A DNA stretch of 64,000 nucleotides from a virus, in the IMG/VR virus record IMGVR_UViG_3300042889_002115, positions 1 to 64,000 of that record; one strand, given 5' to 3'. Each line of letters opens with the position of its first letter. Position 1 is the first letter of the stretch. Positions 39,333 to 55,253 of the stretch are shown here, one piece after another. Under the pieces are notes generated by a model. It was not told the origin of the DNA and did not search any database. It was given only the letters and a program-made list of their open reading frames with translations. Made by a program: the position numbers and the translations under genes.

Positions 39333-39683
39333 ATGAAATGGTTTGCTGAAACAACTGTGTGGAGTGACACCAACATTCCCAATGGTGTGTACTTGCTGGA
39401 CGATGGCAAAAGCAAGATGTATGCATTCCGTCCACAGAGCACTGGTGCTATAAAAGTTTTCAAGAATGCAATCCGTATTGACACTCGTGGACGCAAGTTT
39501 GTGGTCAATCCTGTGCAGTTTGCAACTGGTGTGAAAGAACCAGAACCTCAAGGTCGTGCCTGGACAGTAAAAGGCAGCAAGGGCGACGAGTACAAGGTCA
39601 CAGAGTTGAACGGAAACTTTTCTTGCACCTGTTCAGGATTTCGATTCCGGGGGGACTGCAAGCACGTTAAGGGTGTGACATGA
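39333..39683 (+). CDS. SWIM zinc-finger protein
   Basis: 116-residue protein ending in a SWIM-type zinc site: CTCSGFRFRGDCKHVKGV gives CxC...CxH. The N-terminal part is a small beta domain (NGVYLLDDGKSKMYAFRP) with a basic, strand-rich middle. SWIM domains bind DNA or proteins. Expressed early from its own promoter. Overlaps the next gene by 4 bp. Confidence 0.85.
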   Translation: MKWFAETTVWSDTNIPNGVYLLDDGKSKMYAFRPQSTGAIKVFKNAIRIDTRGRKFVVNPVQFATGVKEPEPQGRAWTVKGSKGDEYKVTELNGNFSCTCSGFRFRGDCKHVKGVT

Positions 39684-39910
39684 ATTCAGCACAACGACGA
39701 CAGGATGACCGAAAGTGGAAGTACCAGATCAAGTTAACTTTGGAGGAGGCAGATCGTAACGGGTATGACAACATGTTTGACTGGTGCCGCACCACGTTTG
39801 GCAATGGTATACACAATGATCTTTGGCGGGAAAAACATCAAGAAACTGGCACCTGGTGGCAGTTCAGTGACAGCAAGGCCGCCGCACTGTTTGCACTGAA
39901 ATGGTCGTAA
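39680..39910 (+). CDS. LKW-family small protein 1
   Basis: 76-residue member of a paralogous family in this phage. Features: a helix with MFDWCRTTFG, a turn with WREKHQETGTWWQF, and the terminal signature FSDSKAAALFALKWS (aromatic-x-Asp, Ala-rich helix, Leu-Lys-Trp at the very end). Other members lie at 45.1, 45.3, 51.7, 54.5, 54.8 and 54.9 kb. Function unknown; a small alpha/beta fold is likely. Confidence 0.78.
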   Translation: MNSAQRRQDDRKWKYQIKLTLEEADRNGYDNMFDWCRTTFGNGIHNDLWREKHQETGTWWQFSDSKAAALFALKWS

Positions 39911-39938
39911 GAAAGCCCCTTTCGGGGCTTTCATTTCT
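39911..39938 (+). terminator. Bidirectional-looking terminator
   Basis: GAAAGCCCC (39911-39919), TTTC loop (39920-39923), GGGGCTTTC (39924-39932), then ATTTCTT. Stands between two convergent genes. Confidence 0.85.
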
Positions 39939-40165
39939 TACGCCTGGTCTACAAACTTCTTGAGTTCTTCAGCCTTGCTCACAATATCCGCACTAGACGG
40001 AAAGTCCGGTAAGGCTGGAAATGCAAGTGAGTCACGATTGGCATCAGTTAACTTGGCATGATACTCATTTATCTTAGCCTCGCGAGTTTGGTAGATTGGC
40101 GTTTGGAGTATTTCCCTAGCCAAGTGTAAGAGTTCGAGACGAATCTCATAGGGTGTTTTGCTCAT
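39938..40165 (-). CDS. Small helical phage protein, function unknown
   Basis: 75-residue protein beginning MSKTPYEIRLELLHLAREIL, a helical start common to a family of small T4-like phage proteins, then a charged helix and Pro-rich turn (FPALPDFPSSADIVSKAEEL). Good ribosome site (AGGAGAAA). Shares the terminator at 39911 with the convergent gene. Confidence 0.78.
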   Translation of the reverse strand: MSKTPYEIRLELLHLAREILQTPIYQTREAKINEYHAKLTDANRDSLAFPALPDFPSSADIVSKAEELKKFVDQA

Positions 40166-40237
40166 GTTTTTCTCCTGTGTGATGTGTGTGTAATCGTGCC
40201 CCGCCCTTTGCAGGACAAGATTGCTACACGAGCAAGT

Positions 40238-40669
40238 TTACTTATAGATGTAGTTGATGGTGTTGGAATTTTCACGCAATTCTCTAGCACCATTTTTCAA
40301 ATGAAATCGTCGAGCCATTTCGGTCTTGGGACTTAGGGTCACATAGGTGCTGATATCGGGAAATTCTTGCTGAATGCTGGTCTGAGCCTGCTGGATTAGT
40401 TCTCGGCCTGCGCCAGCGGCATAGCTCCAAATGGTGTAAAATACCGCAGTTGTGGCACTCTCGACCAAGCCAACCAAGTCTTCCACAGCAGCAGGAACCA
40501 CAGTCAAAAACTTCACACAGGTCACTGCCAGAGTTTGGTCACCATTTTTCAGCATGTAGATTCTGCTGTTGGCATTGACTCTTTGGCTTAGAGGAATTTC
40601 GGGACGTACCGGGTCATCCTGAATCAAGGTCTCAAGCTCGTCGGTAATGGTTGTGATGGTGTGTAACAT
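40238..40669 (-). CDS. GNAT-fold-like protein
   Basis: 143-residue protein. LAVTCVKFLTVVPAAVEDLV and AVFYTIWSYAAGAGRELIQQ look like the central strands and pyrophosphate-loop helix of a GNAT acetyltransferase, followed by TYVTLSPKTEMARRFHLKNG, a phrase typical of the last strand-helix in such folds. A clear acetyl-CoA loop (R/QxxGxG/A) is approximate (AAGAGRE). Late-type box upstream. Activity unproven; similar proteins occur in T4-like aquatic phages. Confidence 0.6.
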   Translation of the reverse strand: MLHTITTITDELETLIQDDPVRPEIPLSQRVNANSRIYMLKNGDQTLAVTCVKFLTVVPAAVEDLVGLVESATTAVFYTIWSYAAGAGRELIQQAQTSIQQEFPDISTYVTLSPKTEMARRFHLKNGARELRENSNTINYIYK

Positions 40670-40695
40670 AATCTACGCCATTCGTTATATACAGC

Positions 40696-40703
40696 TATTT
40701 ATC
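40696..40703 (-). promoter_or_regulatory. Late-type promoter box
   Basis: Reads GATAAATA on the minus strand, 27 bp upstream of the start at 40669. Confidence 0.5.
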
Positions 40704-40770
40704 TTTGGCATCAAAATTTGATATTTTTTATCAAAACAATAGATTATGGCAACATGTGTGCCAAACATGC

Positions 40771-40799
40771 TTGATTATATCGCACACATGCGTTATACT
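40771..40799 (+). promoter_or_regulatory. Sigma70-type promoter
   Basis: TTGATT (40771-40776), 17 bp, TATACT (40794-40799). Confidence 0.7.
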
Positions 40800-40807
40800 A
40801 GTATCAT

Positions 40808-40824
40808 GCTGTGACGCAAACAGC
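40808..40824 (+). promoter_or_regulatory. 5'-leader hairpin
   Basis: GCTGT (40808-40812) pairs with ACAGC (40820-40824), loop of seven, starting 9 nt after the -10 box; followed by AATTTAACTTACTTTGAAAG and the gene at 40855. Confidence 0.45.
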
Positions 40825-40854
40825 TAATTTAACTTACTTTGAAAGGTAACAATT

Positions 40855-41121
40855 ATGCGCTTTAATCCAGAAACTAAAACCTACAAACTTTTCTCCGCTC
40901 TCAATGCAGGCGAGAAAGTGTCCGCCAGTGTCGCTTCCAAGCGTTTTGGCATCAAGAACATTTCCGCTGAAGTGTCACGTATCCGTCAAGCAGGCTTTGC
41001 TGTGTACGGCAACTCCCGTGTGGCCGGCAACGGTATCAAGGTTACAGAATATGTAATCGGCAAACCAAGCCGCAAGATTGTGGCTGCTGGCTACAAGGCC
41101 ATGGCCATGGGCCTGGTCTAA
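40855..41121 (+). CDS. Winged-helix DNA-binding protein
   Basis: 88-residue basic protein: KTYKLFSALNAGEKVSASVA, KRFGIKNISAEVSRIRQAGF (helix-turn-helix with recognition helix) and a wing VYGNSRVAGNGIKVTEYVIG, then a basic tail. Common in aquatic phages, presumably a DNA-binding architectural or regulatory protein. Strong promoter, structured leader and AAAGG ribosome site suggest high expression. Confidence 0.82.
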   Translation: MRFNPETKTYKLFSALNAGEKVSASVASKRFGIKNISAEVSRIRQAGFAVYGNSRVAGNGIKVTEYVIGKPSRKIVAAGYKAMAMGLV

Positions 41122-41163
41122 TACAGACTCGCTGTCCGATTCAGACCGGACACTTAGGTAAAC

Positions 41164-41190
41164 AAGGCCCGTGCAATGCGGGCTTTCTCT
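41164..41190 (+). terminator. Rho-independent terminator, fused to next promoter
   Basis: AAGGCCCG (41164-41171) pairs with CGGGCTTT (41179-41186) with one G-T, loop TGCAATG, T-rich tail. The -35 of the next promoter begins at its end (41190). A second hairpin (TGTCCG/CGGACA) lies just upstream. Confidence 0.82.
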
Positions 41191-41218
41191 TGACCATTAA
41201 TTCAAGATGTTGTATAAT
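41190..41218 (+). promoter_or_regulatory. Sigma70-type promoter
   Basis: TTGACC (41190-41195), 17 bp, TATAAT (41213-41218); drives the gene at 41239 and followers. Confidence 0.88.
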
Positions 41219-41238
41219 TGTTCAGCAAAGGAGTAAGC

Positions 41239-41691
41239 ATGTTTTTAAAACTACTGGAGCGTCTGGGCCGAAAAAGGATTGTTTACGATCGCCTGGACAA
41301 TGAACCGTATCTGGAGCGTTACTATATTTTTCTCAAGGACCGAAGCTGGTTCCCTTTTAATGTGTTCCTTCACAAGTTTCTCAAGAGTGATCCTGACGAT
41401 GTGCATGATCATCCGTGGCCATTTGCCACACTAATTTTGAAAGGTGGATACTGGGAGTGGCGCCCGCAGTTTGATGCACAAGGTAACAAGGCCGGAGAGA
41501 TTGCCAAATGGTGCGGTGCCGGTAGCTTTAGAACTGCTCGAGCCACAACATATCACCGCATTGAACTGGATCCCACAGTGGAATGTTGGACCTTGTTCAT
41601 GCCTGGTGCCAAACAACGAGACTGGGGATTCCTTGTGAAAAACAAGTGGGTACAGTGGGAACAATATTTAACTCAAAGGAAAACAGCATGA
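41239..41691 (+). CDS. Cupin-like protein
   Basis: 150-residue protein with a likely cupin barrel: DDVHDHPWPFATLILKGGYW supplies His and Asp of motif 1, and TTYHRIELDPTVECWTLFM the second His motif. N-terminal MFLKLLERLGRKRIVYDR. Members in T4-like phages are often called hypothetical cupins. Metal binding likely, reaction unknown. Overlaps the next gene by 4 bp. Confidence 0.78.
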   Translation: MFLKLLERLGRKRIVYDRLDNEPYLERYYIFLKDRSWFPFNVFLHKFLKSDPDDVHDHPWPFATLILKGGYWEWRPQFDAQGNKAGEIAKWCGAGSFRTARATTYHRIELDPTVECWTLFMPGAKQRDWGFLVKNKWVQWEQYLTQRKTA

Positions 41692-41990
41692 AATGGTTTG
41701 ACAAATGGTTTCTCAACAAATCCAAGTGGGCCTGGCAGCACCGCAACGACGAACCTAATGTGGCTGAGGTAGAAACAAACAGCGTATCAAGATTGGTTGG
41801 CCGTGAGCATGACTGGCACGAAAATCTCAGCTTGTCGATAACTACTGCAAATGGTGGAAAAATTGTTTCGTTCAGGCGCTATGATCACAAGACTGATCGC
41901 CATGACAACAAGATCTATGTTGTGCCCGATGATCTGGACTTTAATGCAGAACTGGGCAAGATGATCACTTTGGAAAGCATGCGAGGTTAA
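41688..41990 (+). CDS. Small phage protein, function unknown
   Basis: 100-residue protein, MKWFDKWFLNKSKWAWQHRN then LVGREHDWHENLSLSITTAN and IVSFRRYDHKTDRHDNKIYV. Trp-rich start, beta-rich body. Start 41688 is coupled (ATGA) to the cupin-like gene. No family recognised. Confidence 0.74.
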   Translation: MKWFDKWFLNKSKWAWQHRNDEPNVAEVETNSVSRLVGREHDWHENLSLSITTANGGKIVSFRRYDHKTDRHDNKIYVVPDDLDFNAELGKMITLESMRG

Positions 41991-41992
41991 AT

Positions 41993-42358
41993 ATGGACTT
42001 GATCATGGAGTTTTTAGAACTGGCTGGATATGTTGCAATTGCATATGGCATTGTTAGATGGATGACCAAAACGGCCGTGCCAAGTGAGACCAACCAGGTC
42101 CTGACCGAAATCCAGGATGGTAGCTTGATACCACTCACTGTTGAACTTGACAACAATACCTTTTTGTGCTATAATATGTTAACAAAGGAATTTGTGTGTC
42201 AGGGCAATGATCTCAACGAGATCATGAAACGGTTCACTGAACGATTCCCTGACACAATGTTGTCCTTTTATGATGACAACAGTGTCGCAGTCAAAATCTT
42301 GAACGAACAACGCAGGAGTTTACTTGAAAATCGCAATTGCATCGGACCTACACCTTGA
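41993..42358 (+). CDS. Membrane-anchored phage protein, function unknown
   Basis: 121-residue protein: N-terminal hydrophobic stretch (FLELAGYVAIAYGIVRWM) then a soluble domain with IQDGSLIPLTVELDNNTFLC and RFTERFPDTMLSFYDDNSVA. A promoter for the following phosphoesterase gene is embedded in its coding sequence (42148-42175), and it overlaps that gene by 35 bp. No family recognised. Confidence 0.72.
   Translation: MDLIMEFLELAGYVAIAYGIVRWMTKTAVPSETNQVLTEIQDGSLIPLTVELDNNTFLCYNMLTKEFVCQGNDLNEIMKRFTERFPDTMLSFYDDNSVAVKILNEQRRSLLENRNCIGPTP
42148..42175 (+). promoter_or_regulatory. Intragenic sigma70-type promoter
   Basis: TTGACA (42148-42153), 16 bp, extended TGC-TATAAT (42167-42175) inside the 41993 gene; ATATGTTAACAAAGGAAT follows. 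Confidence 0.65.
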
Positions 42359-43202
42359 ATTTGGTGACCTGGAGTTTGACAACAGCAGCCACGCTGATGT
42401 GTTGATCCTGAGTGGCGATATCCTTGTGGCCCGAGATATCACACAACATGATCCCCACAACATCATGGGAACAGAATACCGTAGCAATCGATATCACAAC
42501 TTTATGCAACGCTGCTGTGAACAGTTTGCTCATGTGATCTACGTCATGGGTAATCACGAACACTATCATCATGACTTTGCCAAGACCGAAAGTCATCTCA
42601 AAGATGTGCTTGGTTACCTGAAAAACTTGTATATCCTTGAGCGTGAAATCAAGGTCATTGACAACGTTACCTTTGTTGGTGGCACGTTATGGACTGACAT
42701 GAACCAGGAAGATCCGCTGACCTTGTACCACATGAAGAGCATGATGAATGATTTCAGGATCATCAGCAACAGCAACAAACAGGTCAATTATAGAACTTTT
42801 GATGATGTTGACAATCCTGAAAAACCAACTTTTAGAACTCGGGAGGCCAAATTCAGCCCGGAGGATTCAGTAGAACAACATCGTATGTTTGTGGCCTACC
42901 TTCAACACTGTGTTGAAGGCCGAGCAGATCAAAAGTTTGTGGTGGCGGGGCATCATGCACCCAGCAGACTCAGCACACATGCACAGTATGCCAACGCCAC
43001 TCTGATGAACGGTGCCTACCGTTCAGACTTGGATGAATACATTCAGGATCATCCGCAGATTCGACTGTGGACTCATGGGCACACGCATCACAATTTTGAC
43101 TACATGATTGGCGAAACTAGAGTGGTATGTAACCCGCGTGGTTATCATGGGCATGAGCAACAGGCCGCTACCTGGCAACTGCAAACCGTGGAGATTCAAT
43201 GA
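42324..43202 (+). CDS. Calcineurin-like metallophosphoesterase
   Basis: 292-residue enzyme with complete two-metal motifs: IASDLHLEFGD, ILSGDILVA, VMGNHEHYHH, VAGHHAPSRL and WTHGHTHHNFDY. TTG start with CAGGAG ribosome site 8 bp upstream. Related to phosphoesterases found in many phages; substrate unknown. Distinct from the PlcP-type enzyme (lacks its WVESCTALVEH signature). Confidence 0.9.
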   Translation: MKIAIASDLHLEFGDLEFDNSSHADVLILSGDILVARDITQHDPHNIMGTEYRSNRYHNFMQRCCEQFAHVIYVMGNHEHYHHDFAKTESHLKDVLGYLKNLYILEREIKVIDNVTFVGGTLWTDMNQEDPLTLYHMKSMMNDFRIISNSNKQVNYRTFDDVDNPEKPTFRTREAKFSPEDSVEQHRMFVAYLQHCVEGRADQKFVVAGHHAPSRLSTHAQYANATLMNGAYRSDLDEYIQDHPQIRLWTHGHTHHNFDYMIGETRVVCNPRGYHGHEQQAATWQLQTVEIQ

Positions 43203-43459
43203 GCCAACAAGAAACTACTGCCAAGGGCCAACGAGGCATACTGATCACTGGTATGGATAATCAAGTGTACTTTAGACAGTACGCCAGTGACTACACCTTT
43301 GTTGACTACATGTTGACCAACTATGACGTTGAGATTGAAATCACTGATGCAGACGCTGCCTTGATCAGAAACGAAAGCGGCAACTTTCTTGACTACACTT
43401 CTGAAAGCATGAGTGTTGTGGCAAACAGTAACCTTGGTAGTGACAATGACCGAACTTGA
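43199..43459 (+). CDS. Small acidic phage protein, function unknown
   Basis: 86-residue protein, coupled (ATGA) to the phosphoesterase. GQRGILITGMDNQVYFRQY then an acidic strand-helix region (NYDVEIEITDADAALIRNES). Compact alpha/beta fold likely. No family recognised. The next gene starts inside its last codons. Confidence 0.74.
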   Translation: MSQQETTAKGQRGILITGMDNQVYFRQYASDYTFVDYMLTNYDVEIEITDADAALIRNESGNFLDYTSESMSVVANSNLGSDNDRT

Positions 43460-43625
43460 AACTTTGTTGAAAACACATGACTGGGGTCATGCAGGATACA
43501 TTACTCGACCTGCAATAGATCAAGCCATGCGAGCCACAGCAGGTGCAGAAGCCACTGCACTATGGGAAAAATACTGTCCTTGGAGTGAGACCAATGGCGG
43601 ATACATTGCCTGGAGTAAACGATGA
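43446..43625 (+). CDS. Small phage protein, function unknown
   Basis: 59-residue protein from the ATG at 43446 (an upstream TTG would start deep in the preceding gene). TELETLLKTHDWGHAGYITR then a helix MRATAGAEATALWEKY and CPWSETNGGYIAWSKR at the end. Aromatic-rich, no family recognised. Overlaps neighbours at both ends. Confidence 0.66.
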   Translation: MTELETLLKTHDWGHAGYITRPAIDQAMRATAGAEATALWEKYCPWSETNGGYIAWSKR

Positions 43626-44344
43626 AAGTATATATTAGCAAATATCGAGATCACTGGATCTCACCGTACACCATGTTGGACTATGCGTTTTGGTGGACTG
43701 ACTGGTCACGGTGCAGTCGTGACAAAACTGTGATTCGTTCACTGGCCGAAGAGCGTGAACACAAATATGTGGAACACCCTGCCTGGGTAGAGCGGTGGTC
43801 GGATCGACTGCTGCCTGTTAGTCGTGCTATTGCATGGGTGTGGGACCGTGTGCATCCACCCATCAACTACATCAAGATTGATCACTATGACACCTGGAGC
43901 ATGGATCATACCCTGAGCCCCATCATCCTGCCCATGCTGAAACAACTAAAAGCGGCCAAGCATGGTTCACCGTTTGTGGATGACGAGGATGTGCCAGACG
44001 AACTAAAAAGCACAGCAGCGCCCCCCAAAGAAAACGAATGGGACACTGATGAAAACCACTTCCGGCGTTGGGACTGGGTCATGAGCGAAATGATCTTTGC
44101 ATTTGAGTGCAAGGTAGATGACTCCTGGGAAGATGCTTTCCGTTCAGGCGAACATGACATTACATGGATCCCTGTGGATGCTGCCGGCAATGAAGTAGCC
44201 AAGGGCGAGCACAAGTACTATCAAATGGGACACGGGCCCAAAGACACCTACCGGTGCGATTACGAAGGCATGAAGGTGGTAGAAGCTCGTATTCAAAACG
44301 GCTTCCGATTATTTGGCAAGTATTATGCAGCACTTTGGGATTGA
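43622..44344 (+). CDS. Conserved phage protein, function unknown
   Basis: 240-residue protein starting MKVYISKYRDHWISPYTMLD. Conserved Trp/His/Asp-rich segments follow (FWWTDWSRCSRD, IKIDHYDTWSMDHTLSPII, ENEWDTDENHFRRWDWVMSE) and GHGPKDTYRCDYEGMKVVEA near the end. This sequence style is shared by a family of hypothetical proteins in many tailed phages; a structural or DNA-linked role has been guessed but not shown. No enzyme motif I can name. Confidence 0.82.
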   Translation: MKVYISKYRDHWISPYTMLDYAFWWTDWSRCSRDKTVIRSLAEEREHKYVEHPAWVERWSDRLLPVSRAIAWVWDRVHPPINYIKIDHYDTWSMDHTLSPIILPMLKQLKAAKHGSPFVDDEDVPDELKSTAAPPKENEWDTDENHFRRWDWVMSEMIFAFECKVDDSWEDAFRSGEHDITWIPVDAAGNEVAKGEHKYYQMGHGPKDTYRCDYEGMKVVEARIQNGFRLFGKYYAALWD

Positions 44345-44345
44345 C

Positions 44346-45041
44346 ATGAGAACTGCACTGCAGACAATCAACTGGGACGAGGTTCTCACCATTGACAACG
44401 AGCCTCCCGAAGGACCAATTGTGTTCAAAGATGATCCAATTGCCATGGCCTGTGCCAGCTATAGATTGGGGCAACAGGGTGGATATGCCTGGTTGGATCT
44501 ACATTCAGCAACAATAGAACCTCAGGATCGCGACACAGCCGCTGACATTCGCAAATACTATGCTGATCGACTGTTGGTAACAGCACTCAAGTCCAATGGC
44601 GTCATGAGTGAATTTAGACGCAAACTGTATGGTGTGGTCACTGGCAACTATCAACTGAAGAAATCTGAAGAAGGTATGCTGTATCGACTGCCATACTTTT
44701 ATGCTGAAGACACTGGCCTTGATCATGTGATGAGTCAGACACAGTCAGTATCAATAGTCAACAATGCCACAGCAAAGATTGCAGGAAAGTTTACTCTTGT
44801 GAAAAAAATATTTTGCAGTCGTGCACATGCCGGATCTCATTGGCAGTTTTGGTTTGTGCGTGAAACATCTCAGGTGCCATACTTGGTAGAAATCCGGGAT
44901 GACAATGTGCTGTACAAGTTGTTTGACACCTTGACCCAGCAGCCGCAGATGTTTTCCGCGGGCACAACGCACGTCAAACATCATCGCGGCCATTATCGAG
45001 ACAGGGTCTACATCAAGATGACACAGGTTGATCTAGCATGA
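44346..45041 (+). CDS. Phage protein, function unknown
   Basis: 231-residue protein from the ATG at 44346 (2 bp after the preceding stop; an ATG at 44325 is an alternative). Helical first part (MRTALQTINWDEVLTIDNEP, DTAADIRKYYADRLLVTALK) and a beta-rich C-terminal part with VTGNYQLKKSEEGMLYRLPY, SHWQFWFVRETSQVPYLVEI and HHRGHYRDRVYIKM. No family recognised. Confidence 0.76.
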   Translation: MRTALQTINWDEVLTIDNEPPEGPIVFKDDPIAMACASYRLGQQGGYAWLDLHSATIEPQDRDTAADIRKYYADRLLVTALKSNGVMSEFRRKLYGVVTGNYQLKKSEEGMLYRLPYFYAEDTGLDHVMSQTQSVSIVNNATAKIAGKFTLVKKIFCSRAHAGSHWQFWFVRETSQVPYLVEIRDDNVLYKLFDTLTQQPQMFSAGTTHVKHHRGHYRDRVYIKMTQVDLA

Positions 45042-45063
45042 TGGGTCAAGCAGTATTTGCCAA

Positions 45064-45282
45064 ATGTATAGAATTGAATTACCAAACTTGACCCCCGATG
45101 ACGGCATACGTCTCAAGAATCTGCTGATCAGTACTGGACTAGTAATGTATCAGGACTTTGTATGGCAATACCGCACAGCAGTTTACGACAAAACAGGATA
45201 CAACTCAATTACCCCGCGCACAGTGACATTTGACTTTGAGGATGGAGCCACTGCCACATACTGGCGGCTGAAATGGATCTGA
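45064..45282 (+). CDS. LKW-family small protein 2
   Basis: 72-residue divergent member of the LKW family: MYRIELPNLTPDDGIRLKNL, VMYQDFVWQYRTAVYDKTG and the terminal signature VTFDFEDGATATYWRLKWI. The Cys-Arg helix of other members is missing. Function unknown. Confidence 0.72.
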   Translation: MYRIELPNLTPDDGIRLKNLLISTGLVMYQDFVWQYRTAVYDKTGYNSITPRTVTFDFEDGATATYWRLKWI

Positions 45283-45322
45283 CATTTTTGTCAAGCACTG
45301 CTAGACCAACTAATTAACATTG

Positions 45323-45559
45323 ATGAATACTGTTTCAGTCCCTTATCAACATCGCAACAAAGAAAGTTTTCAGCATACCCGAAAAATTACCAAACCTTTT
45401 GGGGCACTGGATCACGTGATAGACTGGTGCAGAACTGAATGCACTGGAGATTGGCGCTGGGAGTTGGTTGACGTCAGTTCAGACACAAGTCCGGGACAAT
45501 ACATTTTTTATTTTGATTCAGATCGTGATTGTGCAGCATTTTCCCTGCAATGGTGCTAG
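45323..45559 (+). CDS. LKW-family small protein 3
   Basis: 78-residue member: KITKPFGALDHVIDWCRTEC carries the DWCRT helix seen in member 1, WRWELVDVSSDTSPGQY the central strands, and the end is FYFDSDRDCAAFSLQWC, where Lys of LKW is Gln. ATG at 45323 is preferred to a TTG directly before it. Function unknown. Confidence 0.74.
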   Translation: MNTVSVPYQHRNKESFQHTRKITKPFGALDHVIDWCRTECTGDWRWELVDVSSDTSPGQYIFYFDSDRDCAAFSLQWC

Positions 45560-45573
45560 TACTTTTGCTGTAC

Positions 45574-45602
45574 TTGACTCAAAACCCTGATTCAGCTATA
45601 AT
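45574..45602 (+). promoter_or_regulatory. Sigma70-type promoter
   Basis: TTGACT (45574-45579), 17 bp, TATAAT (45597-45602). Confidence 0.85.
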
Positions 45603-45627
45603 ACAAGCTCATCCACTAGGAAACGCC

Positions 45628-46064: not shown

Positions 46065-46065
46065 T

Positions 46066-46658: not shown

Positions 46659-46661
46659 TGG

Positions 46662-46690
46662 TTGACCATTGATCATAATTTTGTTATAAT
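46662..46690 (+). promoter_or_regulatory. Sigma70-type promoter of the ParB-like gene
   Basis: TTGACC (46662-46667), 17 bp, TATAAT (46685-46690). Confidence 0.88.
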
Positions 46691-46702
46691 ATACACAAGC
46701 TA

Positions 46703-46748: not shown

Positions 46749-46766
46749 ATTACTAAAGGAAACAAA

Positions 46767-47819: not shown

Positions 47820-47820
47820 A

Positions 47821-48892: not shown

Positions 48893-49119
48893 ACCTGGAT
48901 CTTAACTCAGTATTGAAATGGTTGGGCACTGTGACCTTGATTGTGGGCACTGGCATCAACAGCCTGGGCTATTATCCAGCAGGACCACTGATTCTGCTGT
49001 TGGGCGGCGCCTTTTGGTTGGCCGTGAGTATTCGTTGGCGCGAACCTGCACTGATTGTGACCAATGCTGTGATGTTTGTGACAGCAGCCGCGGGCCTGAC
49101 CTGGGCATGGCTAAAGTGA
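48889..49119 (+). CDS. Small membrane protein, function unknown
   Basis: 76-residue protein with three hydrophobic segments (VLKWLGTVTLIVGTGINSLG, GPLILLLGGAFWLAVSIRW, IVTNAVMFVTAAAGLTWAWL). Member of a style of small membrane proteins found in T4-like aquatic phages. Coupled by ATGA to the preceding gene. Confidence 0.78.
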   Translation: MNLDLNSVLKWLGTVTLIVGTGINSLGYYPAGPLILLLGGAFWLAVSIRWREPALIVTNAVMFVTAAAGLTWAWLK

Positions 49120-49123
49120 CTGC

Positions 49124-49477
49124 ATGATGTCACTGCCATTTCCCATTACTCAGGTCCGCAACGGTTGGATGATTAGCTGGCCCGGCTTTCGTGACATCAG
49201 CCAGATAGAAATCAAACAGAAACTGGCAGATTTAATTTTTGACTCCATTGGAGTGGAAGAGGCCCGTTTTGGTGTTCGAGTGCAGAGTGGCAAAACTGAA
49301 TTCTTGCACATACAATTCGATGACTGGGCCGCAGATCGATCCGGCATTGCAGACAAAATACTGGACCGAATTGAAATAACCGGGGTGTTGTTCGACACTA
49401 AACAGTCGGCTGAATGGTTGCAGGACTACTTTGAAAAAAAGCTGATGTGGAAACGGTTAAAACAGGTTGCTCAATAA
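49124..49477 (+). CDS. Phage protein, function unknown
   Basis: 117-residue protein: PITQVRNGWMISWPGFRDIS, helix EIKQKLADLIFDSIGVEEA, and strand-helix TEFLHIQFDDWAADRSGIAD; ends in a basic helix (YFEKKLMWKRLKQVAQ). Start may be either of two adjacent ATGs. No family recognised. Confidence 0.74.
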   Translation: MMSLPFPITQVRNGWMISWPGFRDISQIEIKQKLADLIFDSIGVEEARFGVRVQSGKTEFLHIQFDDWAADRSGIADKILDRIEITGVLFDTKQSAEWLQDYFEKKLMWKRLKQVAQ

Positions 49478-49495
49478 TCACTTTAGTGCTATAAT
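49467..49495 (+). promoter_or_regulatory. Sigma70-type promoter
   Basis: TTGCTC (49467-49472), 17 bp, extended TGC-TATAAT (49487-49495). Confidence 0.72.
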
Positions 49496-49518
49496 AATAG
49501 CACACAAGGAGACAATCC

Positions 49519-50046
49519 ATGCTTACTTTGCCCGAATTTCTTGAATTGATTGATCATCGCATCACTGGCGGCAGTGAATACGGTTGGCAGTGCTACGGCG
49601 GCCATGCACAGACCATTGACTCAGACGCAGTAGACTACAACTTCTCAGTGATTTTTGATCGGCAAGATCAAACAGTGTACGAAGTCACTGTGTGTGATTA
49701 TCCCAACAACCGTGCCTATCGCATTATCAACCCTGATTACAAAACCAAACATGATGCCGAAGCGTCCATGCGTGGGGTTCAATCCCGCCAGGCCTGGGAC
49801 GATGTTAACTATGTGGATCTAGATGTGGATGACGATTTTATACAAAAAGGTCTGGCCATCCGTGCAGGCAACTCATACGACACACGAGTTCAAGTTGAGT
49901 TGGACCTAGACGATGACCTGTTGCTCCAGCTCATGACTCAAGCTCACAAGCAAGACATTACCCTGAATAAAATGGTCGAGCAGATCCTGACGGAAATGAT
50001 TGATCGTACTCAAAAATCACAAACTGAATCTCAAAGGCAGCTGTAA
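49519..50046 (+). CDS. Phage protein with C-terminal ribbon-helix-helix-like domain
   Basis: 175-residue protein. N-terminal domain: EFLELIDHRITGGSEYGWQC, VIFDRQDQTVYEVTVCDYPN. C-terminal 50 residues: RVQVELDLDDDLLLQLMTQA and NKMVEQILTEMIDRTQ, a strand plus two helices as in ribbon-helix-helix DNA-binding or HicB-type proteins. Suggests a DNA-binding regulator fused to an unknown domain. Ribosome site AAGGAG. Confidence 0.76.
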   Translation: MLTLPEFLELIDHRITGGSEYGWQCYGGHAQTIDSDAVDYNFSVIFDRQDQTVYEVTVCDYPNNRAYRIINPDYKTKHDAEASMRGVQSRQAWDDVNYVDLDVDDDFIQKGLAIRAGNSYDTRVQVELDLDDDLLLQLMTQAHKQDITLNKMVEQILTEMIDRTQKSQTESQRQL

Positions 50047-50051
50047 ATCGG

Positions 50052-50080
50052 TTGACCTTTATTCACCAAAATGCTATAAT
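50052..50080 (+). promoter_or_regulatory. Sigma70-type promoter, near-identical copy of 6595
   Basis: TTGACC (50052-50057), 17 bp, TATAAT (50075-50080), leader TAACACTTAAACAGCAACAA then GGAG. Differs from the 6595 copy by one base up to position 50106. Confidence 0.92.
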
Positions 50081-50110
50081 TAACACTTAAACAGCAACAA
50101 GGAGCCTTGA

Positions 50111-50437
50111 ATGTTTGCACTAGACAATATTGAATCCGTCCATAACACTGCCGTAGCCGCCGCGCAACAGGCCGAAACAGAATTCCGCGCCCGGCATGGT
50201 GAGCCTGGCTACTGTGGTTTTGCCTGGGTGCAGGTAACTGAAAAAGCCAGTACCAAACTGGGTCGTGCGCTGAAAACTGTGGGCTTTACCAAGGCCTACG
50301 GTGGCGGTCTCCAGCTGTGGAATCCGGGTGGTAGCTTCACGCAGAGCATGGACATCAAAGAAACAGGTGCCCGAGCCTATGCTGAGGTACTCAAGTCGCA
50401 TGGCATCACTGCATACATGAGCTCAAGAGCCGATTGA
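50111..50437 (+). CDS. Conserved phage protein, function unknown
   Basis: 108-residue protein with a helical start (VHNTAVAAAQQAETEFRARH), GYCGFAWVQVTEKASTKLGR, GGGLQLWNPGGSFTQSMDIK and ARAYAEVLKSHGITAYMSSR. The WNPGGSFTQ segment is typical of a family of small proteins in T4-like aquatic phages. Function unknown. Conserved promoter-leader cassette. Confidence 0.8.
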   Translation: MFALDNIESVHNTAVAAAQQAETEFRARHGEPGYCGFAWVQVTEKASTKLGRALKTVGFTKAYGGGLQLWNPGGSFTQSMDIKETGARAYAEVLKSHGITAYMSSRAD

Positions 50438-50462
50438 CCCTTATTCACCATTCTGTTATAAT
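50434..50462 (+). promoter_or_regulatory. Sigma70-type promoter with conserved leader
   Basis: TTGACC (50434-50439), 17 bp, TATAAT (50457-50462), leader ATACATAAACAGCAACAAGG. Confidence 0.88.
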
Positions 50463-50492
50463 ATATACATAAACAGCAACAAGGAGTTCTAA

Positions 50493-50966
50493 ATGGGCAC
50501 ACACAGTCGAATTGGGGTCATGCACGGTGACACTGTTAAGAGTGTTTACTGTCATTGGGATGGCTACCTGGAGCACAATGGCCGGATCCTACAAGAGCAT
50601 TATGGCTCAAATCAATCCCCCAAAGCAAATCATCTTGTGGCCTTGGGCGACATTAGCTCGCTGGGCAAAGAGATTGGTGAGAAGCATCCGTTCAGTCGAT
50701 TTGACACTGACATGTCAGACGAAGCGTATGAGAAACTCTATGGCAACATGACCACTTTTTACGGTCGCGACCGTGATGAACAAGGCGTGGACTTCAAAGT
50801 GGCACACACCTTTGCCTCCTTCCTGGATCAGGTTGAGGCCTGTGGTGCAGAGTATTACTACATCATGCGTGACGGTGTGTGGTACTGTGGTAGTCCTAAC
50901 AAGGGTAGCCGACTGGTGGCTCTGACAGAGGCTCTGGCTGCAATACAGGAGACTGAACATGCGTAA
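50493..50966 (+). CDS. Conserved phage protein of the MGTHSRIGV type
   Basis: 157-residue protein starting MGTHSRIGVMHGDTVKSVYC, then HWDGYLEHNGRILQEHYGSN. This opening is shared by a widespread family of phage and bacterial hypothetical proteins. The rest is acidic and helical with YYYIMRDGVWYCGSPNKGSR near the end. The first 60 residues look like a compact alpha/beta domain. Function unknown; no nuclease or kinase motif. Confidence 0.83.
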   Translation: MGTHSRIGVMHGDTVKSVYCHWDGYLEHNGRILQEHYGSNQSPKANHLVALGDISSLGKEIGEKHPFSRFDTDMSDEAYEKLYGNMTTFYGRDRDEQGVDFKVAHTFASFLDQVEACGAEYYYIMRDGVWYCGSPNKGSRLVALTEALAAIQETEHA

Positions 50967-51087
50967 TTTAATAATTGGATTCATTCTAGGCCTGGTGGTC
51001 AGTGCTGTGGGATTTTCGGGTATTGCTCGAATGTTCGACCGAGGTGTCCAAACCATCCAGGAAACCAGCAAAGAACTCGCCCAGTAA
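50959..51087 (+). CDS. 42-residue membrane protein, function unknown
   Basis: Short frame starting in the last codons of the preceding gene (8-bp overlap), with CAGGAGA upstream. One membrane helix (LIIGFILGLVVSAVGFSGIA) and a polar tail (GVQTIQETSKELAQ). Resembles small inner-membrane proteins of T4-like phages. Confidence 0.62.
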   Translation: MRNLIIGFILGLVVSAVGFSGIARMFDRGVQTIQETSKELAQ

Positions 51088-51123
51088 AACGGGCAAACAG
51101 AGTCAAAATTATGCAGAAAGTGG

Positions 51124-51152
51124 TTGACCGTTATGCCGCAATCTGCTATAAT
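51124..51152 (+). promoter_or_regulatory. Sigma70-type promoter
   Basis: TTGACC (51124-51129), 17 bp, TATAAT (51147-51152). Confidence 0.88.
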
Positions 51153-51158
51153 TTAGAC

Positions 51159-51177
51159 ATGCAGAAAAACACTGCAT
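51159..51177 (+). promoter_or_regulatory. 5'-leader hairpin
   Basis: ATGCAG (51159-51164) pairs with CTGCAT (51172-51177), loop of seven, beginning 7 nt after the -10 box, thus at the very 5' end of the message. Confidence 0.6.
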
Positions 51178-51217
51178 TAATTTTAAACTTGACAGGCAAC
51201 TTTTTAAAGGCAACAAA

Positions 51218-51574
51218 ATGACAGAAAAACTCTTCACAGTGGCAGGTACTGCAACTAACCCCGATGGCACAACCAAGGCTCGTTTTGCAAACGACCTGGT
51301 GGCTCGCATCAAGATTCTAAACAAATCCAAATGCACTGACATTAACCTGATGGAACTGCCCGAGCCCATGACCAAACTGCAAGCTCTGCAATTTTTGCAA
51401 GCACAGGGGGTCACTGACGGCGAAGCTGGTTATGCAGTGAGTGCCAAATTGGCAGAGAAAAGCAAGGTCGCTAAAAAAGGCGAAGTCAAAGTGGCTGGCG
51501 TCAAGACCAAATCCGCTAAACCAGCGGTCACTGCTGAACAGGTGCTGTCTGCAGTAAACAAAGCCTCCGTTTAA
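51218..51574 (+). CDS. Conserved phage protein with Lys/Ala-rich tail
   Basis: 118-residue protein, KLFTVAGTATNPDGTTKARF then ADLVARIKILNKSKCTDINL-like helix/strand order, ELPEPMTKLQALQFLQAQGV and a basic tail (KVAKKGEVKVAGVKTKSAK). Common small abundant protein of aquatic phages; the tail suggests binding to nucleic acid. Strong promoter, 5' hairpin, ribosome site AAAGG and a strong terminator indicate high expression. Confidence 0.78.
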   Translation: MTEKLFTVAGTATNPDGTTKARFANDLVARIKILNKSKCTDINLMELPEPMTKLQALQFLQAQGVTDGEAGYAVSAKLAEKSKVAKKGEVKVAGVKTKSAKPAVTAEQVLSAVNKASV

Positions 51575-51596
51575 AAACTGACCAGCTCAGACCCAC

Positions 51597-51620
51597 AAGC
51601 GGCCTCCGGGCCGCTTTTTT
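51597..51620 (+). terminator. Rho-independent terminator
   Basis: AAGCGGCC (51597-51604), TCCG loop, GGCCGCTT (51609-51616), followed by T's. Confidence 0.9.
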
Positions 51621-51728
51621 ACGATCGTGACACTTTGGCATATATAAACTGTGCGTCAAGTTGACGCCATTTTTTTACCAATGACCATACTTTCGTATCG
51701 CTCCGCCGAGCCCTTGTATATTGTCAGC

Positions 51729-51929
51729 ATGCGTAACAACCCTCGAGCAGAAACTATGTTTCGGACCTGGATCAAAGATCACAAGATTGAGCATGCTTCA
51801 GTGTCTGACTACCGACTCCAATTACACGACCAACGCGGATTTGAGAAATTCTGCTTGACCTGGTCACACGATTGGCAGTGCCTGAATGTGTGGGATACCT
51901 GGAATCGACGCCACATTTATCTGGATTAA
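51729..51929 (+). CDS. LKW-family small protein 4 (divergent)
   Basis: 66-residue protein. AETMFRTWIKDHKIEHASVS, YRLQLHDQRGFEKFCLTWSH gives the strand, helix and Leu-Thr-Trp end of the family, but an extra 17 residues follow (WQCLNVWDTWNRRHIYLD). The start is uncertain: ATG at 51729 fits the family and follows a TATATT element; ATG at 51681 is the alternative. Confidence 0.6.
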   Translation: MRNNPRAETMFRTWIKDHKIEHASVSDYRLQLHDQRGFEKFCLTWSHDWQCLNVWDTWNRRHIYLD

Positions 51930-51944
51930 TTTACTCGTCTTTTA

Positions 51945-51973
51945 TTGACACCAGGTGTAGTTGACGTTATAAT
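51945..51973 (+). promoter_or_regulatory. Sigma70-type promoter of the H1-like gene
   Basis: Perfect TTGACA (51945-51950), 17 bp, TATAAT (51968-51973). Confidence 0.85.
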
Positions 51974-51981
51974 TACTTTGC

Positions 51982-52001
51982 TGCCAGCAAATCAGCTGGC
52001 A
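51982..52001 (+). promoter_or_regulatory. 5'-leader hairpin
   Basis: TGCCAGC (51982-51988) pairs perfectly with GCTGGCA (51995-52001), loop AAATCA, 8 nt after the -10 box; tail CTTAATAAGGAAACTC resembles the hsp20 and phasin leaders. Confidence 0.65.
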
Positions 52002-52023
52002 CAGTCTTAATAAGGAAACTCAA

Positions 52024-52212
52024 ATGACTACACAACATGAAACAATCGTCGCCGCTTATGAATCTTACATCTCTGAAAATGAGAAGTTCACAACCAAGGG
52101 TGTGAAAGCCTCTGCGGCCCGAGCCCGTAAAGCTCTGCAGGAAATGTCAAAAGGTATCAAGGAGCGCCGTAAAGAAATCACAGCTGAAAAAGAAGCACTA
52201 GCTGCAAAATGA
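52024..52212 (+). CDS. Histone H1-like protein (Hc1 type)
   Basis: 62-residue basic helical protein: TIVAAYESYISENEKFTTKG then SAARARKALQEMSKGIKERR and KEITAEKEALAAK. This matches the N-terminal helical domain of Hc1-like proteins (a helix with KxTTKGxxxxAxRxRKAL). Such proteins condense or coat DNA. Strong promoter and 5' hairpin suggest high expression. Overlaps the next gene by 4 bp. Confidence 0.75.
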   Translation: MTTQHETIVAAYESYISENEKFTTKGVKASAARARKALQEMSKGIKERRKEITAEKEALAAK

Positions 52213-52379
52213 TTGTGAAACAAGACCAAGTACACCGGCAGCATCCAGAACACTGGCCCGAAGAACTAACACCTGCACAACGAGAGCAACTGTTGCAGGC
52301 CAAGTTGACTCGGGCTGTGGAATGGATTCGTGCTCGTGCTGGTCTTGATACCTTTAGGTATCAAAAGGAATCAACATGA
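52209..52379 (+). CDS. 56-residue phage protein, function unknown
   Basis: Small charged helical protein (HPEHWPEELTPAQREQLLQA then LTRAVEWIRARAGLDTF), overlapping both neighbours by ATGA junctions, which supports translation. Function unknown. Confidence 0.66.
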   Translation: MIVKQDQVHRQHPEHWPEELTPAQREQLLQAKLTRAVEWIRARAGLDTFRYQKEST

Positions 52380-52813
52380 GTGATGATGAATTAACAATTA
52401 CCTGGCCTGATATTTCTGACACTTCGGACACATACAATATCAACCTTGACTCAATGGGCACAGTCAGTAGTGGTGGAGCGTATGTCTACAGTGCCAACAC
52501 GAACAACACAATCTGGACCACAAACACCACAACTGGTTCAAATCCGCAATTCAATAACTGGAACATAGGCAACAGCAATGTTGTACCGACGGGACAGTTG
52601 AGCCTAGTGGGCGACAATGCTGACATTGTGATCAATGGTCAAAGCCTAAATGACACACTGACAATCATACAAGAACGCCTGGGCATGTTGGTACCCAATG
52701 CAGAAATGGAAGCAGAATGGGACGAACTGCGCGAGCTCGCTGAACGCTATCGTGAACTAGAAAAACTATGCAAGGAAAAAAGCACAGTATGGAACAAGCT
52801 CAAAAAGATTTAA
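52376..52813 (+). CDS. Conserved phage protein, probable virion component
   Basis: 145-residue protein: acidic/Thr/Asn-rich N-terminus, then GQLSLVGDNADIVINGQSLN and a helical C-terminus NAEMEAEWDELRELAERYRE. The phrase NADIVINGQSL followed by a coiled coil ending in KLKKI is shared by hypothetical proteins of many T4-like aquatic phages, sometimes detected in virions as I recall. Function not known. Confidence 0.78.
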   Translation: MSDDELTITWPDISDTSDTYNINLDSMGTVSSGGAYVYSANTNNTIWTTNTTTGSNPQFNNWNIGNSNVVPTGQLSLVGDNADIVINGQSLNDTLTIIQERLGMLVPNAEMEAEWDELRELAERYRELEKLCKEKSTVWNKLKKI

Positions 52814-52853
52814 CATCCCGGCACAAGATGACCCCCCATTCCTGTGTGCAGAC

Positions 52854-52882
52854 TTGACAACTAAGTCAAGTTCTTGTATAAT
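52854..52882 (+). promoter_or_regulatory. Sigma70-type promoter of the lysis genes
   Basis: Perfect TTGACA (52854-52859), 17 bp, perfect TATAAT (52877-52882). Confidence 0.9.
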
Positions 52883-52889
52883 ACAATAC

Positions 52890-52946
52890 GTGAGTTAACT
52901 GCTCACATAATGGCAAAATCGTGCCATTTGGGCCCGATGATTCGGG
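52890..52946 (+). promoter_or_regulatory. Triple-hairpin 5' leader of the endolysin gene
   Basis: GTGAG/CTCAC (52890-52906), AATGGCA/TGCCATT (52909-52928, seven pairs) and CCCGA/TCGGG (52933-52946), stacked one after another in the roughly 90-nt leader. Could control stability or translation of the lysis message. Confidence 0.6.
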
Positions 52947-52978
52947 GTTATGCAACTCTCTGAGTAAGTAAAACTACC

Positions 52979-53557
52979 ATGAAAGCACAAGTAAACTCTA
53001 TCAACCAAGCACTGACCACCTGGAGCGCAAGACTGCTAAAGTCTCTGGGTCTGCTGGCAGTGGCCGTGACATTGTTCACTGTGGTTGGTGCCAAATTTGA
53101 TCATCTGCGCCTGGCCAACAGCAGAATGCCCGAGCACATGATCACTGCTGAGCAACGCATGAAAGAACTGGATTGTCTTACTAGAAATATCTACTGGGAA
53201 GCTGCCTCGGAACCTTTTGAAGGCAAAGTAGGCGTGGCCCAGGTCACACTGAATCGAGTAGAATCGGGCAAGTTCGCCCCTACCATATGCGGAGTGGTGT
53301 ACCAAAAGAATGTGTTCTACGAAAAAGTAGTGTGCCAATTCAGCTGGTTCTGCGAAGCAACTCACAAGATCAGACCCATTCACAAACCTTTGTGGCTGGA
53401 AAGTGAAGAAGTGGCCAAGAAGGTACTGCTGGAAGGATTCCGCCTGCCCAGCCTGGAAAACGCATTGTTCTATCACGCAGATTACGTGAGCCCAGGCTGG
53501 AAACTGCCCCGAATTGAAAAAATTGGACGACATATTTTTTATGGAGAACGTGTATGA
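52979..53557 (+). CDS. Cell-wall hydrolase (SleB-like endolysin) with N-terminal membrane anchor
   Basis: 192-residue peptidoglycan hydrolase. Residues 20-43 form a membrane or signal-anchor helix (LLKSLGLLAVAVTLFTVVG), then the Hydrolase_2 domain: LTRNIYWEAASEPFEGKVGV (catalytic Glu), AQVTLNRVESGKFAPTICGV and CQFSWFCEATHK. It degrades peptidoglycan, likely from the periplasmic side; the anchor resembles signal-arrest-release endolysins. Overlaps the next membrane protein (possible holin). Confidence 0.88.
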   Translation: MKAQVNSINQALTTWSARLLKSLGLLAVAVTLFTVVGAKFDHLRLANSRMPEHMITAEQRMKELDCLTRNIYWEAASEPFEGKVGVAQVTLNRVESGKFAPTICGVVYQKNVFYEKVVCQFSWFCEATHKIRPIHKPLWLESEEVAKKVLLEGFRLPSLENALFYHADYVSPGWKLPRIEKIGRHIFYGERV

Positions 53558-53862
53558 AATGGCAAATCTTATTTTTTGGCCTGCGAGATTATATCCGCGA
53601 AAGTTCTGCCAAAATCTCAGCTGACACTCTGGGATGGCTGGCTGCAATTGTACTGCATGCAGCCACAGTGCCCACAACACTGGCCCTGATAACCGGACTC
53701 AGCGACCGCACTCCCAATTTGGATATAGTGCTGTTTCTGTGGTCGGGTCTGGTGCTGTTGTTTCTTCGAGCAGTGGTACTCAAAGACATGCTGAACATCA
53801 TCACAATCGGGGTGGGATTCATGGTGCAGGCAGCATTGATGGCCCTGATTCTGTTTAAGTAA
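53554..53862 (+). CDS. Small membrane protein, possible holin
   Basis: 102-residue protein with three hydrophobic segments (LGWLAAIVLHAATVPTTLAL, IVLFLWSGLVLLFLRAVVL and ITIGVGFMVQAALMALILF). It is encoded directly after the endolysin with an ATGA overlap. Size, topology and position fit a holin, but no signature confirms it. Confidence 0.68.
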   Translation: MKWQILFFGLRDYIRESSAKISADTLGWLAAIVLHAATVPTTLALITGLSDRTPNLDIVLFLWSGLVLLFLRAVVLKDMLNIITIGVGFMVQAALMALILFK

Positions 53863-53873
53863 AAAGTACTAGA

Positions 53874-53902
53874 TTGACCATTAATCACAATCGTGCTATA
53901 AT
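53874..53902 (+). promoter_or_regulatory. Sigma70-type promoter, leaderless output
   Basis: TTGACC (53874-53879), 17 bp, TATAAT (53897-53902); the ATG of the next gene is 7 nt behind the -10 box. Confidence 0.88.
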
Positions 53903-53908
53903 AACAGC

Positions 53909-54139
53909 ATGATAAAGATTACTTCTGGTCGATCCTTTCGAACAATCAAGTCTGGCGATCCTGACTGGCATTTCAGTCCCAATGAATTTACTTTGGTGCC
54001 ACGTGCTGGTTTTGAAATCAGTGAAAAATGTCCAAAAGAATATCGAATGATCCTTGCAGATTGTATCAACTACGGCTGGATCAAACCCGTTGCCCACATG
54101 CAAGATTCTGAATACACCTGGGAGTTATTGAAAAAATGA
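53909..54139 (+). CDS. Small phage protein, function unknown (leaderless message)
   Basis: 76-residue protein, MIKITSGRSFRTIKSGDPDW then PNEFTLVPRAGFEISEKCPK and a tail WIKPVAHMQDSEYTWELLKK. Beta-rich middle, two Cys. The start codon is at the expected transcription start. No family recognised. Overlaps the next gene by 4 bp. Confidence 0.78.
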   Translation: MIKITSGRSFRTIKSGDPDWHFSPNEFTLVPRAGFEISEKCPKEYRMILADCINYGWIKPVAHMQDSEYTWELLKK

Positions 54140-54534
54140 GCATGCACCTACATCATCCTAGTCTTAGTCTTAATGGCAAGCGCAAAGGCAAAGTAAAGTT
54201 TCGCAATGCAGCCGAAGCACAACGAGCACGAGAACTTGACGCCAGCTGGAAAGAGATCCTCAAAGCTCAGGGTGTTGCAGACGAGCAGCGCAAACGTACA
54301 CGGGCCATGAAAGCAGAACCCTTGCAATACAATCTCTCTTCGGTTAATGACCGTGCCAACACACGACACATTCCCAGCCTGGATACAGGACACTCTGGTG
54401 CTTTGCGTACCAAGGATATTCCCAAGTACACCGGCACAAAGATTCTGGGCATTGGTACCATGCACAAATCAAATGCAGTGCCTGTGTTCAGCGAAGAAGA
54501 AGCACATGACATCGCAACCATGCGCCGTGGCTAA
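54136..54534 (+). CDS. Basic phage protein, function unknown
   Basis: 132-residue protein rich in Lys, Arg and Gln: LSLNGKRKGKVKFRNAAEAQ, RARELDASWKEILKAQGVAD, then an apparently unstructured region (NTRHIPSLDTGHSGALRTKD) and GIGTMHKSNAVPVFSEEEAH near the end. Likely nucleic-acid binding or virion-associated, unproven. Recurs in T4-like aquatic phages as a hypothetical protein. Confidence 0.78.
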   Translation: MSMHLHHPSLSLNGKRKGKVKFRNAAEAQRARELDASWKEILKAQGVADEQRKRTRAMKAEPLQYNLSSVNDRANTRHIPSLDTGHSGALRTKDIPKYTGTKILGIGTMHKSNAVPVFSEEEAHDIATMRRG

Positions 54535-54769
54535 ACACACAGTGAGAACGCATTACCCTTGGGCAGAGGTACTGAGTTACTTGCAGGAACATGTGGGTGT
54601 GTTGCTGCATTCTCAACCTATAATATTTTGGCACGGTCGAGGCTGGCACATGAAAGCCGGCACCTCACATAGACAAGTAGCACCAAGAGGCACTGTGGGA
54701 ACTAGTTTTTATGATGTCACCTTTGATGATCCCAAGCAGGCAGTGGCCTTTGCACTAAAGTGGGCATGA
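54527..54769 (+). CDS. LKW-family small protein 5
   Basis: 80-residue member with a GTG start inside the preceding gene end. AEVLSYLQEHVGVLLHSQ-like helix and FWHGRGWHMKAGTSHRQ; the end FYDVTFDDPKQAVAFALKWA is the family signature. First of three consecutive paralogues coupled by overlaps. Function unknown. Confidence 0.7.
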   Translation: MAKHTVRTHYPWAEVLSYLQEHVGVLLHSQPIIFWHGRGWHMKAGTSHRQVAPRGTVGTSFYDVTFDDPKQAVAFALKWA

Positions 54770-54933
54770 AATTTTTCCGTAAAGTAAAAATACCCGAAGC
54801 ATACGCTCGTATAGAGTGGTGTCGTATGACGTTGGGTCGCGAGCGCAAAAGTGGCAATTGGTGGCGTCATCGAGGACATATCTACTTCAAAGATGAACAA
54901 GCATTTGTATTTTACACATTGAAATGGGCATGA
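54766..54933 (+). CDS. LKW-family small protein 6
   Basis: 55-residue member: MKFFRKVKIPEAYARIEWCR (family helix with Trp-Cys-Arg), a NWWRHRGHIYF strand and the end FKDEQAFVFYTLKWA. Coupled by ATGA at both ends. Function unknown. Confidence 0.72.
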   Translation: MKFFRKVKIPEAYARIEWCRMTLGRERKSGNWWRHRGHIYFKDEQAFVFYTLKWA

Positions 54934-55253
54934 TAAAGAAACAAGCCATTGCTGCGGGCAGACAATTTGGTAAGACTGGTTTGACAACCGACCAAATTTG
55001 GTGGAACGACATGTGGAACAACACTCCACGACTCGAAACTGGCTATGCCTTCAATCAACCCAAATGGCCCTATTGGGTCAAGCCGTGTAACTACTCTGCC
55101 GAAGAGTGGTTGGATATGACTAATTGGATGGTAGAAACATTTGGTGATACTGACTGGTCTACTCCCGGTGGGCGCTGGGTAGGCAGCGATAGAAAATTCT
55201 GGTTCCGTGATGCAGCCGATAGAACCTTGTTCTTGTTGAAATGGTCACGATGA
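54930..55253 (+). CDS. LKW-family protein 7 (long form)
   Basis: 107-residue member with an extra N-terminal region (AAGRQFGKTGLTTDQIWWND then YAFNQPKWPYWVKPCNYSAE), the helix EEWLDMTNWMVETFGD and the end FWFRDAADRTLFLLKWSR. An ATG two codons earlier exists, but 54930 is coupled to the preceding stop. Function unknown. Confidence 0.76.
   Translation: MIKKQAIAAGRQFGKTGLTTDQIWWNDMWNNTPRLETGYAFNQPKWPYWVKPCNYSAEEWLDMTNWMVETFGDTDWSTPGGRWVGSDRKFWFRDAADRTLFLLKWSR

Follow-up and report, generated by a model that had tools for sequence, protein, structure and literature searches.

Small phage proteins with a shared C-terminal signature that may double as a translation signal in related phages

A 64,000-base stretch of viral DNA (the window; positions 1-64000 in a virus contig of 98,929 bases, IMG/VR record IMGVR_UViG_3300042889_002115) was analyzed for small proteins that end in a shared aromatic, Leu- and Trp-containing signature. 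Six such proteins are probably paralogues, members of a single family of small phage proteins with one domain each. Their genes would act as cassettes that start at ATG and end typically one residue past the Trp of the signature, an ending that would let the TGA stop overlap the ATG of the next gene (ATGA), and in related phages the codons of the signature appear to serve a second time as the Shine-Dalgarno sequence of that gene. Taken together, the paralogue family, a beta-alpha-beta-beta-alpha fold, the cassettes and dual coding in relatives are considered a probable explanation as a whole.

A sequence-only reading of the window had proposed seven members, labelled here P1 to P7 in order along the + strand, each with the signature at its extreme C-terminus. 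The ending [FYW]..D....[FYW].L[KQ]W, followed by 1-2 residues, was found in six: P1 (39680..39910; 76 residues, ending FALKWS), P2 (45064..45282; 72 residues, WRLKWI), P3 (45323..45559; 78 residues, FSLQWC), P5 (54506..54769; FALKWA), P6 (54766..54933; 55 residues, YTLKWA) and P7 (54930..55253; 107 residues, FLLKWSR). The motif occurred at six open reading frame (ORF) ends in the window and at none in 100 random sequences; random sequences, here and for the promoter counts below, were order-1 Markov samples of the window and not exact dinucleotide shuffles. Profiles built from relatives matched these six proteins and no others in the window (E 1e-10 to 1e-21), and the profile search found no further member in the entire 98.9-kb contig. 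P4 (51729..51929) was rejected as a member: its C-terminus reads ..RRHIYLD, the motif-like FEKFCLTW is internal, ~23 residues in, and no family profile matched it at E<10. The proposed family, its clustering by profile and the C-terminal placement of the signature stand for six proteins and fail for P4. A WCR helix, noted earlier in several members, is present in three (P1, P3, P6). When the motif region was deleted, the N-terminal parts still linked P1, P3, P6 and P7 (no decoy reached E<1), and P2 and P5 were not linked to other members by theirs.

P2 and P3 are not coupled. P5, P6 and P7 were confirmed as three consecutive coupled genes: ATGA overlaps join the P5 stop to the P6 start (54766..54769, +) and the P6 stop to the P7 start (54930..54933, +), and a third joins P7 to a non-member gene for a D-Ala-D-Ala carboxypeptidase (Peptidase_S11; 55250..56074, +; overlap at 55250). 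For P5, the ATG at 54506 is the more likely start over the GTG at 54527 chosen in the sequence-only reading, because a 340-kb contig (L223) that shares a block of 86.6% identity with the window retains the ATG but reads GCG where the window has the GTG.

AlphaFold models of P6 (predicted local distance difference test, pLDDT, 83) and P2 (pLDDT 91.6), made from separate alignments, gave the same beta-alpha-beta-beta-alpha order, and in both the F-x-L-K-W signature formed the last helix, in agreement with the earlier proposal of a fold closed by that helix. The fold predicted for the family has F-x-L-[KR]-W as last helix, A, F, L and W predicted to point toward the core and R/K predicted to be free. 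No convincing family was found in Pfam, NCBIfam or PHROGs, where matches were isolated and weak (best, phrog_5825 with P1, E 0.003), and the Protein Data Bank (PDB) yielded no fold with Foldseek E<0.001 and no sequence-profile match. Strong structural matches were obtained solely to unnamed uncultured-phage proteins: the uncharacterised Caudovirales proteins A0A6J5LU58, A0A6J5KVQ9 and A0A6J5L8G4 (BFVD) are predicted to fold as P2 does (TM-score 0.83-0.92). To the extent that the libraries searched can tell, three things are new: this family, the fold it probably has and, in relatives, the union of its C-terminal signature with a signal for translation.

Relatives were sampled in IMG/VR with a degenerate DNA pattern encoding D..DA..F.L[KR]Wx-stop, which returned at least 120 stretches. 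From 121 IMG/VR loci among the matches listed, 601 family ORFs (E<1e-3) were collected and sorted into 234 orthologue groups. They are arranged as head-to-tail arrays of up to 13 genes. The nearest fetched relative of P1 (L102:5065-5295) has ~80% DNA identity to it across 238 bp, and the P7 orthologue group counted 43 in the first set and 38 loci by protein search. The largest group (51 members, e.g. L004:7648-7845) was always first in its array among the loci seen, and in L004 its gene overlaps a conserved gene of PHROG 11058. Within the searches made, the junction is virus-only: the strict junction pattern was found in at least 120 stretches of IMG/VR viral contigs and 0 times in 257 Gb of bacterial and archaeal genomes. 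Two large contigs of 607 and 416 kb gave 26 and 34 family matches at E<=0.001.

Searches of annotated phages with single members (tblastn) returned mostly nothing; one match at E 0.2 pointed to the cultured Sinorhizobium phage Phosso (PV764938; 469 kb). Phosso has 19 family matches at E<=0.001 and 31 at E<=0.01, annotated hypothetical, with endings such as AMLFKLTWS and in partly overlapping runs. Its record also holds a tRNA-Pyl(cta), a possible amber suppressor, near the family genes (L124:919-994, Phosso 446731-446806). Agrobacterium phage Atu_ph07 gave three weak family matches, and no family members were found in the search of P-SSM2, T4, phiM9 and HTVC008M; the P-SSM2 result does not confirm an occurrence of the family in marine cyanophages.

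Dual coding was analyzed at the junctions of these relatives. The next ATG lies 2 or 5 nucleotides past the Trp codon in 222 of 368 non-redundant family genes, and the consensus junction is TTGAGGTGGnCATGA, in which the L-R-W codons double as a Shine-Dalgarno sequence. Among non-redundant genes, the Arg of LRW is encoded by AGG in 141 of 187 coupled genes, in 22 of 53 uncoupled genes and at 106 of 1238 gene-interior positions; Leu codons ending in G make up 78% (coupled), 38% (uncoupled) and 32% (gene interior). The first DNA pattern demands ARR at the Arg/Lys codon; codons were therefore counted again after the pattern-matching genes had been left out, and also in loci fetched by protein. With pattern-matching genes removed, AGG or AAG was found in 132 of 201 coupled versus 22 of 79 uncoupled genes (Fisher 1e-8), and AGG as a share of AGA+AGG, a measure free of the pattern bias, was 117/146 versus 17/34. 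Pairing with the anti-Shine-Dalgarno sequence averaged -5.72 kcal/mol in coupled genes versus -3.29 under synonymous recoding (2.4 stronger; z -24.5). In arrays of the relatives, the unconstrained R/K position and its neighbouring codons would be tuned to TTG-AGG-TGG, a Shine-Dalgarno sequence 5 nucleotides before the next ATG, so that one DNA stretch may serve both the protein and the start of the next gene, which, judging from this anatomy, would be translated by termination-reinitiation. A dual role of the ending would also account for the usual presence of exactly one residue after W and for its NNA codon in coupled genes, where the overlapping ATG fixes the third base as A.

The arrays also bear on how the family grew. 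In 32 comparisons of the form A-B versus A-X-B, neighbours in one locus were split elsewhere by exactly one family gene; P5-P6-P7 in the window, with P6 between P5 and P7, compares with P5 and P7 adjoining in five other loci. Whole genes would accordingly be gained and lost at ATGA junctions. The expansion read from the window finds strong support in related phages, as expansion with turnover, from the array comparisons and the orthologue groups. The block shared with L223 (window 53874..54769, +; L223:2345-3240; 902 bp) has the -35 box of the P5 promoter as its left edge and the P5 stop as its right edge, beyond which the window and L223 are unrelated. In L223 the block directly follows a homologue (recognized by eye) of window gene 44313-45041, which is 9 kb distant in the window.

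Several results weigh against this reading. P2 and P5 are joined to the rest via the C-terminal part alone, plus the predicted topology for P2. Homology in these phages also often breaks at the ends of short non-family genes (22.8% versus 17.6% of 3' ends no more than 6 nucleotides from a stop), so exact borders do not set the family's cassettes apart; the strong claim that they do was dropped after this control, and the block edges are a strong form of a general phage habit and not proof of a family-specific mechanism. Uncoupled members also show some pairing excess (z -5.9; just 45% of the genes fall below the random mean computed for them), for which uncounted GTG/TTG starts may be the reason. 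In the protein-fetched loci AGG was found in 18 of 27 coupled and 2 of 4 uncoupled genes, no significant difference with a small uncoupled sample, and ATGA junctions of non-family genes carry some Shine-Dalgarno sequence too. The window junctions read AAG/AAA-TGG-GC-ATGA (L-K-W), and those of P6 and P7 are nearly without a Shine-Dalgarno sequence (0.3-0.4 kcal/mol). P5-P6-P7 therefore have ATGA overlaps without a good Shine-Dalgarno sequence, use of the trick by the window itself is rejected, and the argument for dual coding rests on the relatives; in this phage, the L-K-W copies would depend on the overlap without a strong Shine-Dalgarno sequence.

An alternative explanation holds that the signature is kept for the protein alone, as a buried amphipathic helix closing the fold, with the codon preference as ordinary bias and the overlaps as ordinary packing. 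F, L and W are conserved in uncoupled members and in Phosso, as it expects, and the window junctions lack a Shine-Dalgarno sequence. It does not readily account for the rise of AGG from 9% of interior Arg codons to 75% at coupled junctions, or of Leu codons ending in G from 32% to 78%. In addition, the Phosso ORFs seen often have T, A, S or Q at the R/K position (by eye), so the fold alone seems not to demand R; Phosso also differs from the related arrays in showing, by eye, no Shine-Dalgarno tuning of the Arg codon or its position. We regard a protein-only origin of the signature as unlikely and prefer dual coding in the relatives.

Expression was addressed through promoters. Eighteen near-perfect TTGACN-17-TATAAT promoters were found in the window, versus 0.02 expected, all on the + strand and from 6200 to 55977, and 12 of the 18 fall between 39 and 56 kb. 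One (39254..39282, +; TTGACC-17-TATAAT) lies 426 nucleotides upstream of P1, and another of the same sequence (53874..53902, +) heads the P5-P6-P7 unit. P1 and P5-P6-P7 are 0.4-1.1 kb behind such promoters, and P2 and P3 ~3 kb behind one; in related loci, 217 of 222 are on a strand carrying family genes. Downstream of several window promoters, a repeated leader, AACACTTAAACAGCAACAAGGAG, carries a Shine-Dalgarno sequence. A terminator-like hairpin stands directly 3' of the P1 stop (39911..39932, +), and none was found on the + strand between P5 and P7. Because the promoters are strong and sigma-70-type, early expression by the host polymerase is likely. A role in host take-over or counter-defence would suit small proteins of one scaffold that are expressed early and whose genes turn over rapidly, and we tentatively suggest, at somewhat below even chances, that the family supplies a changing set of early host-directed binding proteins on one scaffold. 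That they may be inhibitors of varied host targets, an example offered in the sequence-only reading, is a reasonable inference.

Alternatively, the members could regulate translation or transcription by binding nucleic acids, as RRM- or KH-like proteins that lack the last strand. The topology resembles a truncated ferredoxin-like fold with aromatic-rich strands, and P5, P6 and P7 are basic (isoelectric point, pI, 9.6, 10.3 and 8.8), but no significant PDB match was obtained and the family median pI is 5.8, so charge is not a family trait; this role seems more doubtful still than a protein-only signature. A structural or late role, with small size as a coincidence, would be in keeping with the overlap of P7 with a cell-wall carboxypeptidase gene, but strong sigma-70-type promoters lie upstream of P1 and P5, the relatives' loci also carry helicase and DNA polymerase genes, and genes are gained and lost rapidly, which together make this quite improbable. 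The idea that W plus a small residue at the extreme C-terminus is a recognition tail, as had been suggested, or a degradation tag, for instance for the phage's own Clp protease (ClpP, ClpX, ClpS and a ClpA-like ATPase are encoded), was rejected as highly improbable: the residue following W is free to vary (S, A, L, G, T, Q, others), with an NNA codon whose third base is forced by the overlapping ATG in coupled genes, conserved terminal residues as in ssrA-like C-terminal degradation tags were not seen, and more residues can follow the motif (relatives ending ..FMLRWAQAEGNKIK).

The family could work as a plug-in gene system of phages. The codons of that helix would carry the ribosome-binding site and start overlap for the following cassette, any inserted member would be translated immediately, and small and jumbo phages could maintain, and swap around, as many as tens of early host-directed proteins that share a single unnamed fold; we put this forward as a possibility that falls short of an even chance. 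A large family without a Pfam, NCBIfam or PHROGs model that reaches tens of copies in jumbo phages, one of them in culture, would offer a way into the study of many early genes of unknown function. The codon evidence permits a sharp and cheap test of whether a protein motif is shaped by a second job as a translation signal, and suggests how phages could extend early operons while keeping translation.

Other genes of the phage were recorded in passing. A nearly full Clp set comprises ClpX (zinc finger plus AAA), ClpS, ClpP and a ClpA-like ATPase with Clp_N (window 13616-14821, 15703-16011 and 34714-35295; L003:9694-12078, contig ~91.7-94.1 kb), and Hsp20 (15182) and DnaJ (L003:8997) are also encoded. 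Four consecutive overlapping genes lie at L002:8294-11289 (contig ~72.3-75.3 kb); three are Pfam FA_desaturase, and the fourth has similar histidine boxes by eye and no Pfam match. The window further encodes a UvdE-type ultraviolet endonuclease (21471-22517), a radical SAM/SPASM protein (37469-38836), a cell wall hydrolase (Hydrolase_2; 52979-53557) and a PstS-like phosphate-binding protein (23704-24705).

Phages of the T4 type reportedly carry mobile regulatory cassettes, made of an early promoter and a stem-loop, and shuffle their early cassettes. The window resembles them in that early promoters stand at the head of small units where the region is plastic, the block shared with L223 begins right at a promoter (-35 box at 53874), and the P1 unit runs from promoter (39254) through a gene and P1 to the terminator hairpin (39911). 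It differs in that many borders within an array consist of start and stop codons that overlap in coding sequence; relatives further place the ribosome-binding site in the last codons of the preceding protein. Passages of PMC4177764 and PMC3950731 cite the T4-type cassettes to Arbiol et al. (2010).

Overlap coupling with a Shine-Dalgarno sequence in the upstream gene is already known (PMC6728339): in overlapping E. coli pairs, removal of the Shine-Dalgarno sequence reduced coupling in 4 of 5 (Huber et al., 2019), and termination-reinitiation of overlapping gene pairs has been reviewed (PMC12548453). The arrays share with these pairs the ATGA and TAATG geometry and, in relatives but not at P6 and P7 of the window, a Shine-Dalgarno sequence inside the upstream gene. 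Unlike the pairs of PMC6728339, here a whole family carries the signal in a conserved C-terminal motif, repeated through paralogue arrays.

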